From Thiotrichales bacterium (lineage in GTDB: Bacteria; Pseudomonadota; Gammaproteobacteria; GCF-002020875), in contig JABHVM010000012.1 in the NCBI GenBank assembly GCA_018658305.1, positions 1 through 38,575 on the forward strand: a DNA stretch of 38,575 bases, written 5' to 3'. Position numbers and translations under genes: made by a program. Each line of letters begins with the position of its first letter. The stretch's first letter is position 1. The notes beneath the pieces are model-generated. The model did not search any database. It was not told where the DNA came from and saw only the letters and a program-made list of their open reading frames with translations. Positions 1-38,575 of this stretch are shown in pieces.

Positions 1-1
1 A

Positions 2-70
2 CTCGTTAAATGGATGCTTGGTGTAGTAATAGCTGCAACTGTATTGCCTTTACTAAAAAAAATGTTCTGA
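2..70 (+). CDS. C-terminal end of a membrane-anchored protein (5' end outside window)
   Basis: An open frame enters from the left edge and stops at TGA 68-70. The 22 visible residues read as a hydrophobic helix (VKWMLGVVIAATVLPLL) followed by a basic tail (KKMF). This is the usual look of a single C-terminal membrane anchor. Small coiled-coil proteins of the DUF1640-like kind often end in a K/VKW[ML]xG helix of this sort, and a complete protein of that type lies at 38025-38378, so a relative is possible. Only the tail is visible, so the family assignment is weak and the frame itself could be chance. Confidence 0.3.
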   Translation, partial: LVKWMLGVVIAATVLPLLKKMF

Positions 71-120
71 CTTTTGGGTTAGAACTGAGCAGTAGAAAAG
101 CAGGGGGCAAAGAAAATATT

Positions 121-160
121 AAATAAATCACACTCTGACCCTGATTATTTCTGATTATTT
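121..160. repeat. Repeat motif ACTCTGACCC and tandem CTGATTATTT upstream of fic
   Basis: ACTCTGACCC lies at 132-141 and is followed by two perfect head-to-tail copies of CTGATTATTT at 141-150 and 151-160. The first motif is close to the reverse complement of GGGGTCAAGAGT at 955-966, just after the fic stop codon, so the pair brackets the gene as imperfect inverted repeats. The rest of the 120 bases between the left-edge frame and this point shows no gene. Confidence 0.5.
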
Positions 161-191: not shown

Positions 192-947
192 ATGAACAAA
201 TTTAACTCTAAAACAAATATAGAAGATAGTCACGCAGACAGCCTATTAGAAAATAGAGGTAACTTATTAGATTCTGTTAATAAAGTTCTAAAAAAACTCA
301 CCCTAGTAAAAGATAAAGAGAGATCTTTGTTTTTAGCAAATAAACTTTTTGCTGAAATTATTTATGATGTTGCATATCTTGAAGGAAGCCCGTACACCTT
401 TCCTGAAGTACAAACCCTATTGGAAGGTATTACTGTTGGTGGGCATAAACTAGATGATGAGAAGCTAATAATTAATCAATCTAATAGTTGGAAACTATTA
501 TTAGAGATGGTTAAGAAAAATGAATTTACTATATCTAAAGAAGTTGTCTTAAAACTTCATACAAAAGTTGCTAAAGAAGAAGCATTAAAGTGGGGGAGTT
601 TTAGAGATGGTCAAGTCTATATTGCTGGTACAGAGTGGATGCCACCAGCTCATGAAGCGTTAGATGCAATATTTAAAAGTGTCACTAAAGATATAGAGAC
701 AATAGCAAATCCTTATGAAAAAGGTATTTGCTTGTTTCTTTATATGGCAAGAAATCAATTTTTCTATGATGGCAACAAAAGAACAGGGCGTTTAATGATG
801 AATGGAATTATACTTAGCGCTGGATATGAAGCCATTAGCATTCCTGCTAAGAGTAAACAAGCGTTCAATGAGAAGATGATTAGGTTTTATAATTCAGGCG
901 ATACAATTGAGATGTTAGAGTTTATTCTATCTTGTAGCCGAGTCTAG
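192..947 (+). CDS. Fic-domain family protein with degenerate catalytic motif
   Basis: Fic-fold protein of 251 residues. Fic enzymes normally transfer AMP or another phosphate-containing group to target proteins. The N-terminal part has an inhibitory-helix-like segment, YLEGSPYTFPEV (residues 62-73, E64-G65), resembling the class II (S/T)xxxE(G/N) motif, but with Val where Ser/Thr is expected. GSFRDGQVYI (135-144) and the following PP are typical of the Fic core. The active-site loop reads QFFYDGNKR (189-197) against the consensus HxFx[D/E]GN[G/K]R, so the catalytic His is Gln while the phosphate-binding D-G-N-K-R is intact. It may therefore have lost AMP transfer or do other chemistry. The ATG at 192 is used because an earlier ATG (181) hits a stop at once. 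The ribosome site (AAAGG near 166) is distant and weak. Codon use is more AT-rich than in purB, and repeats flank it, suggesting transfer. Confidence 0.88.
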   Translation: MNKFNSKTNIEDSHADSLLENRGNLLDSVNKVLKKLTLVKDKERSLFLANKLFAEIIYDVAYLEGSPYTFPEVQTLLEGITVGGHKLDDEKLIINQSNSWKLLLEMVKKNEFTISKEVVLKLHTKVAKEEALKWGSFRDGQVYIAGTEWMPPAHEALDAIFKSVTKDIETIANPYEKGICLFLYMARNQFFYDGNKRTGRLMMNGIILSAGYEAISIPAKSKQAFNEKMIRFYNSGDTIEMLEFILSCSRV

Positions 948-1003
948 TATAAAAGGGGTCAAGAGTATAAAAGTATAAAAGGGGTCAGGTCTTTACTTTT
1001 GCA
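947..1003 (+). repeat. Dispersed repeat copy A, with tandem GTATAAAA units
   Basis: GTATAAAA occurs at 947-954, 965-972 and 973-980, and TATAAAAGGGGTCA is repeated exactly at 948-961 and 974-987. The second unit runs into GGGGTCAGGTCTTTACTTTT (981-1000) and then GCA. Nearly the same sequence is present in reverse orientation at 21633-21656 (22 of 24 matches), and its last 14 bases reappear in reverse at the right edge (38562-38575). From memory, motifs of this GGGGTCAGGTCTTTACTTTT kind are common beside REP-associated tyrosine transposases in proteobacteria. No such transposase is in the window. Confidence 0.7.
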
Positions 1004-21035: not shown

Positions 21036-21155
21036 ATGAAAACCAACGCTATACTCTTTGACCTCGATGGTACGCTGATTGATACTGCACCTGATCTTGA
21101 TCAAGCAGTTGCCGATAAGATTATTAAAAATTCCGATAAAGTATCCGAAGAGTAA
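21036..21155 (+). pseudogene. Truncated duplicate of the mupP 5' end fused in frame to a foreign tail
   Basis: The first 64 bases (21036-21099) match the start of the intact phosphatase gene (22325-22388) at 62 of 64 positions and encode MKTNAILFDLDGTLIDTAPD. From base 21100 the sequence departs and runs in frame into QAVADKIIKNSDKVSEE and a TAA at 21153. The result is a 39-residue open frame with the HAD DxDGT motif but no other phosphatase part. The foreign tail lies three bases before a zeta-like kinase gene and could be the remnant of that kinase's partner gene; this is inference from position. It probably is the original mupP start cut off by an insertion. Confidence 0.75.
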
Positions 21156-21528: not shown

Positions 21529-21581
21529 ATAGAACAGAAAAGAAATCAGATAAAATAGTAACGCAAAGTAGCAGATAGTAG

Positions 21582-21611
21582 TTGTTATGCCTACACATAC
21601 TAAGGTATACT
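21582..21611 (+). promoter_or_regulatory. Candidate promoter of the second toxin-antitoxin pair
   Basis: TTGTTA (21582-21587) and TATACT (21606-21611) are 18 bases apart. An inverted pair TAAGG/CCTTA (21601-21605, 21617-21621) straddles the -10 and could be an operator. The antitoxin start is 59 bases downstream of the -10. Confidence 0.4.
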
Positions 21612-21632
21612 CCTAGCCTTATGAGTCAGGTA

Positions 21633-21656
21633 AAAAGTAAAGGCCTGCCCCCTTTT
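21633..21656 (-). repeat. Dispersed repeat copy B
   Basis: AAAAGTAAAGGCCTGCCCCC followed by TTTT is the reverse complement of the core of copy A (977-1000) with two substitutions in 24 bases. It lies in the leader between the candidate promoter and the ribosome site of the antitoxin gene at 21670, so it arrived with the island or inserted into it. Confidence 0.65.
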
Positions 21657-21669
21657 TTTAGGAGAAGAG

Positions 21670-22324: not shown

Positions 22325-22984
22325 ATGAAAACCAACGCTATACTCTTTGACCTCGATGGAACTCTGATTGATACTGCACCTGATCTTGCTTATGCGCTAA
22401 ATGAGGTTTTGAACTCATACAGCCTACCGCTACAATCGATAGAAAAAGTGCGGGAGGTTGCCTCTTTCGGAAGTACTGTTCTACTTAAACTGGGCCTTGG
22501 AGAGAGCCTTAATGAGGTGCAATTTGAGGAGGCTCGGCAGCGCCTATTTGATATCTATAGTGCTAACATCGCTAACCAGAGCTGTCTGATGTCTGGAATG
22601 GAGACGCTTCTGGAAGATTTAGAGCGCCAGCATATTCTCTGGGGCGTAGTCACTAACAAGCCAAAACGGTTCACCGATCCATTGATGGTTGAGCTAGGGT
22701 TAGCCGATCGCTCTGCTACAACGGTGAGTGGTGATACAACTGATCAAGCAAAACCACACCCTAAACCTATGCTTTATGCCTGTCGAGAGATGTCGGTCAC
22801 CCCTCAAACTTGCATATATATCGGAGATGCAGAGAGAGATATTGTGGCAGGCAGAGCAGCTGAGATGACCACACTCGCCGCACGCTTTGGCTATCTTGCA
22901 CCAGACGATAAGATAGATGAGTGGGGAGCAGAGGGAGTAATAGATCATCCTATTGAAATTATGGAGTGGATAAACAGTGATTGA
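22325..22984 (+). CDS. mupP: HAD-family phosphatase, MupP / phosphoglycolate phosphatase type
   Basis: Soluble haloacid-dehalogenase phosphatase of 219 residues. The nucleophile motif is FDLDGT (D9, D11), motif II is VTNKP, and motif IV reads IYIGDAERDI. The segment WGVVTNKP followed by VSGDT and KPHPKPMLYAC, and the ubiG/yciK neighbourhood, match Pseudomonas mupP, which dephosphorylates N-acetylmuramic acid 6-phosphate in wall recycling; phosphoglycolate phosphatase (gph) is the alternative. The first 64 bases are a duplicate of 21036-21099. Its native upstream region was therefore replaced by the island. No clear AGGAG precedes this ATG, so expression may have changed. The stop overlaps the rmuC start by eight bases. 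Confidence 0.9.
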   Translation: MKTNAILFDLDGTLIDTAPDLAYALNEVLNSYSLPLQSIEKVREVASFGSTVLLKLGLGESLNEVQFEEARQRLFDIYSANIANQSCLMSGMETLLEDLERQHILWGVVTNKPKRFTDPLMVELGLADRSATTVSGDTTDQAKPHPKPMLYACREMSVTPQTCIYIGDAERDIVAGRAAEMTTLAARFGYLAPDDKIDEWGAEGVIDHPIEIMEWINSD

Positions 22985-38561: not shown

Positions 38562-38575
38562 TGCAAAAGTAAAGA
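38562..38575 (-). repeat. Dispersed repeat copy C (cut by window end)
   Basis: TGCAAAAGTAAAGA at the last 14 bases is the exact reverse complement of 990-1003 in copy A. If the copy continues, the next bases to the right should read CCTGACCCC. Only 14 bases are visible. Confidence 0.55.

Follow-up and report, generated by a model that had tools for sequence, protein, structure and literature searches.

A dispersed repeat of a Thiotrichales genome as the terminal inverted repeat of a Y1-transposase element, and tandem stuttering at its outer edge

Introduction

The closest described systems are the TIRYT (TIRtron) elements, in which a Y1 transposase gene is flanked by terminal inverted repeats (TIRs) with the consensus GGGGWSAS (Di Nocera et al. 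2013, PMC3733652). According to the sections of that paper used here, TIRYT TIRs also occur elsewhere in genomes as singles, dimers and groups. These elements correspond to TnpA-Y1 subclass 2.1, or RAYT group 1, which the sections used of PMC6006769 give as the second largest Y1 subclass. A cleavage site for subclass 2.1 is not given in the literature that we examined, including those sections of PMC6006769. Elements of the IS200/IS605 group have neither terminal inverted repeats nor larger target duplications (PMC2817692).

Results

The window, meaning the whole stretch of DNA analysed here (38,575 nucleotides), is the entire contig C86 of a 1.645-Mb genome in 96 contigs. An earlier note had described a dispersed repeat family with three copies in this window, and all three were recovered. 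The sequence GGGGTCAGGTCTTTACTTTT occurs as an exact match at 981-1000 (+) and with 2/20 mismatches at 21633-21652 (-), where the 22/24 match claimed for 21633-21656 proved correct; 38562-38575 (-) is the reverse complement of TCTTTACTTTTGCA at 14/14 positions, with about 0.0008 such matches expected in the window. This last copy holds only the inner 14 bases because the contig stops there. In 100 shuffles of the window GGGGTCAGGTCTTTACTTTT had no match. Counting and mapping the motif over the whole genome, as the earlier note had suggested, gave 13 places when up to 3 mismatches were allowed, against 0 for a reversed-pattern control in the same genome. The GCA-extended form TCAGGTCTTTACTTTTGCA fits 11 of the 13, which comprise element ends, solo copies, one inverted pair and one dimer.

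Two copies, at C22:174(+) and C22:1069(-), form the ends of a single gene of 287 codons, and a 25-base inverted repeat with GGGGTCAG lies at both ends of that gene. The encoded protein has a Y1_Tnp domain (E=1.6e-12) with the HUH and Y---NP motifs (NHYHLL and YIVLNP). Its match to NCBIfam REP_Tyr_transpos (E=7e-22) falls slightly below the cut-off of that model. As for the helix-turn-helix or DnaA-C-like domain expected at the C-terminus of TIRYT transposases, the C22 protein gave only the sub-threshold matches HTH_Tnp_4 (E=0.003) and Sigma70_r4, and a relative on C21 passes Bac_DnaA_C. A link to a RAYT-type transposase, which the earlier note had raised, is borne out by the motif at both ends of a Y1_Tnp gene. 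The window copy at 981-1002 (+), GGGGTCAGGTCTTTACTTTTGC, matches both element ends exactly and is a solo TIR of the C22 type. A scan of bacterial genomes found 67 relatives of the protein. In about 40 related elements from other proteobacteria the TIRs mostly begin GGGGTCAGGTCT, and they do so at both ends in most complete relatives from alpha-, beta- and gammaproteobacteria. The repeat is almost certainly the TIR of a Y1 HUH-transposase (TIRYT) element, with an intact copy at C22:174-1088. The family is already known and this member is new; a literature search with the motif string returned one unrelated paper only. The solo, paired and head-to-head copies, mostly intergenic, are non-autonomous derivatives or relics of the C22 element. 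Two genomes of the same genus (G003 and G004) keep TIR copies, and no close C22-type transposase was found in them; therefore copies can outlive their enzyme, and we infer that some are relics there or that another enzyme serves them.

The comparison with the known systems is closest for TIRYT. The consensus GGGGWSAS fits the C22-family TIR, and scattered TIR copies are common to both. Tandem units of host flank plus TIR tip, seen here at the outer edge of the repeat, are without mention in the sections used of PMC3733652 and PMC6006769. REPINs and REP-RAYT systems (PMC3116915, PMC2817692) likewise consist of short dispersed non-autonomous repeats with a Y1 transposase, and their head-to-head dimers form hairpins as they do here. 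They differ in that the C22-family unit lacks a GTAG or GTGG head, has no hairpin inside the single unit and has few genomic copies. An assignment to GTAG-type REP/REPIN was accordingly rejected: the unit starts GGGGTCAGG, and a solo copy shows no folding (z=0.2). IS200/IS605 elements share the Y1 HUH catalytic domain with the C22 family, which differs in its long TIRs and the tandem duplications at its edge. An assignment to that group, defined by subterminal hairpins and no TIRs, failed on the long TIRs and on an NCBIfam transpos_IS200 score far below the cut-off. MITEs are gene-free TIR pairs of about 40-150 bp, like the C72 dimer and an Alcanivorax pair described below; those of DDE elements have fixed target-site duplications, whereas C22-family copies are often single ends.

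The eight loci with canonical copies take several forms (gene names without a Pfam match are our reading of the translations). The C22 element with its own transposase lies beside recG. Solo copies lie near purD (C36), engB/polA (C37), prlC (C43), an antiporter gene and a CopG/BrnT pair (C32), and fic/purB in the window. On C79 an inverted pair encloses a glyoxalase-like gene, and on C72 a head-to-head palindromic dimer of 42 bp stands between methyltransferase and zinc-peptidase genes. When folded, this dimer and a 46-bp counterpart from the same genus form near-perfect hairpins; the solo copy stays unfolded. In one uncultured alphaproteobacterium (G121; L153, L181, L223-L242), about 25 head-to-head TIR dimers, each roughly 50-70 bp long, make up a REPIN-like population composed of TIRYT ends. 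Several of them (L226, L233, L242) have inverted-symmetric host flanks.

Directly outside the window copy, at 946-980 (+), we observed a tandem stutter, which had been overlooked in the earlier note, whose coordinates start ahead of the TIR. These 35 bp before 981 contain AGTATAAAA at 946, 964 and 972, with GGGGTCA at 955 and 981, so that the order into the TIR is AGTATAAAA-GGGGTCA-AG-AGTATAAA-AGTATAAAA-GGGGTCAGG. The idea of repeated rearrangement at the edge of the repeat agrees with these tandem units of flank plus tip. The same pattern is present at the left end of the C22 element, at the C32 copy and at many relatives. We quantified it by asking whether the 11 boundary bases (5 of flank and 6 of tip) recur 8-60 bases upstream with at most 1 mismatch. 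Stutter was found at 33 of 137 TIR ends, whereas swapping the flanks gave 1.4 (maximum 5 in 200 permutations) and random positions scored at a rate of 1.1%. With the test unchanged, a hold-out set of new places from the genomes of relatives, largely copies away from transposase genes, gave 14/46 against 1.0 expected. The dimers of one alphaproteobacterial genome gave 5/40 against 0.54 expected. When the TIR ends of the superfamily were pooled, 60 of 263 (23%) stuttered at the boundary compared with about 0-2% at a distance of a few hundred bases, most of the relatives being metagenome assemblies, where mis-assembly of short tandem repeats is possible. The tandem copies in this pooled set sit outside the TIR end, not inside. 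A small control with DDE elements, 12 IS copies (IS1, IS2, IS4, IS5 and IS30) read from three annotated regions of E. coli K-12, showed stutter at 0 of 24 ends. TIRYT ends often carry this sequence scar, in the present genome as well as in many other bacteria. No description of it was found in the literature searched, nor any report joining a tyrosine transposase, tandem duplication and inverted repeats.

The geometry of the units was read from 85 ends at which the tandem copies were exact, with nested ones counted separately. The tip part was most often exactly GGGGTCA (20), followed by tips of 2 bases (11) and 6 bases (7), while the flank part mostly measured 6-11 nt. A gap of zero between successive units was commonest (18), and many units had filler or a different tip length. 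The modal event duplicates roughly 13-18 bp cleanly in tandem and ends after GGGGTCA. We rejected the idea that the two ends share a simple target-site duplication, as the flanks differ in the few pairs compared by eye. Some elements (L068, L100) have symmetric, inverted flanks.

Related genomes bear on the timing of the stutter. In Alcanivorax, G117 and G114 share a 100-bp TIR pair that G127 lacks; in G127, GGGG is left between the flanks. At apparently the same host flank, G116 (L085) has stutter units that G117 and G114 lack, and this difference suggests that stutter arises at resident ends. Alternatively, the site in G116 may reflect re-insertion, its TIR being of another subtype. G003 and G004 lack the C72 dimer at the corresponding sites; where the dimer is present, one side of the site carries about 50 additional stutter-like bases.

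A second TIR family (AATAATTAGGGTCAGAGTGTGATTTATT) occupies 15 genomic places. Its trace in the window, at 88-149 (+), is a decayed right end from a TIRYT element of the C29 type, aligned to the C29 element end over 65 columns with 82% identity, with its TIR at 122-149 facing left. Because this remnant belongs to the second family and the TIR at 981 is of the C22 type, the fic gene at 192-947 (+; Pfam Fic, E=5e-11) lies between outward-facing TIRs of different families. The Fic protein also matches the phage family phrog_11900, of unknown function (E=2e-59). Between direct copies of the second-family TIR there is a cupin-like gene upstream of the transposase on C29 (L050 1-4675) and a glyoxalase-like gene on C79 (L047 2949-4119); such genes may represent occasional cargo capture.

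The copy at 21633-21652 belongs to a divergent sub-class. It could not be kept as a plain copy, since it is part of a longer two-copy repeat before TA-type operons: a block of about 87 bp (21573-21659) is 91% identical to C90:2957-3043 (L048), just upstream of a TA-like operon of the BrnT type. The genes that follow the two blocks are antitoxin-like and unrelated to each other, and the block may be a mobile region that lies upstream of TA operons. Near the window copy of the block, the opening 64 bases of gph occur twice, at 21036-21099 and 22325-22388 (62/64 identical). These direct repeats bracket a 1.3-kb TA island, an insertion into the start of gph, with the intact gph on the right.

Discussion

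Taken as a whole, the explanation that joins a TIR origin of the repeat to stutter from transposase nicks has, in our estimate, a probability of roughly 0.8. A different account had been given in the earlier note, where the repeat was said to track accessory insertions and perhaps to act as an insertion tag or recombination site. An accessory-type gene does adjoin a copy or sit between copies at three of the eight canonical loci (fic in the window, the CopG/BrnT pair on C32 and the glyoxalase-like gene on C79), and fic is bracketed by TIRs from two families. However, the other five have only housekeeping or own-transposase neighbours, and the neighbours of the second TIR family are equally mixed, mostly housekeeping genes. 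Since copies lie mostly between housekeeping genes, the account fails as a rule, and a binding of the repeat to accessory genes is improbable. We regard it as still less probable, and indeed very unlikely, that the copies are regulatory elements, such as parts of promoters or terminators, spread through ordinary duplication. Their intergenic location and the position of the divergent sub-class immediately before two TA-type operons would suit such a role, but the copies occur in either orientation, their placement with respect to genes differs from one to another, and they match transposon ends exactly.

The stutter itself admits two mechanisms. In the first, the TIRYT enzyme would nick the tip of the TIR, with a preference for the position after GGGGTCA; a second break, or a point of re-annealing, would lie about 6-11 nt into the host flank, and repair of the nicked end would duplicate flank and tip in tandem, giving a stutter such as that at 946-980. 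That TIRYT transposases repeatedly nick resident ends in this way, so that edges grow ladders of flank and tip, is a tentative proposal drawn from sequence patterns, to which we give somewhat less than even odds; the same holds for its core, that the cut comes from the enzyme and not from replication by itself. The main rival is about equally likely and in our view only just short of an even chance: the TIR itself would provoke ordinary slippage or template switching during replication, with no role for a transposase, and the repeat would still be a TIR. The proposed provokers within the TIR are an internal GGTCA/GGTCT repeat, the run of G, or hairpin formation with an inverted partner; the tip indeed holds the short direct repeat GGTC-A-GGTC, the dimers form strong hairpins, and slippage would give the variation in tip length and the filler found in many units. 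Against slippage alone, copies that do not fold stutter too, including the solo copy of the window, and so does the hold-out set, largely away from transposase genes. Moreover, a single tip length (7) dominates with zero filler as the mode, the duplications lie solely on the outer side of the end, and ordinary IS ends did not stutter in the DDE control. The stutter at solo copies, the fixed tip and the clean DDE control lean towards the enzyme, though not decisively.

If transposases do make the cuts, the ladders would record in vivo cleavage by this transposase class, and the scar would be a genomic readout of TIRYT activity across many bacteria. As the scar recurs and has a preferred end point, it then predicts the position at which the enzyme cuts. 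Should replication be the only cause, the scar would remain a clear example of sequence-specific instability at an edge.

The stutter accounts for short tandem repeats beside TIR ends, and perhaps for contigs that break there. Both ends of the window (1-149 and 38562-38575) fall in TIR repeats, and contigs C29 and C74 likewise end at a TIR repeat or within 20 bases of one. These TIR families may break the assembly at contig ends.
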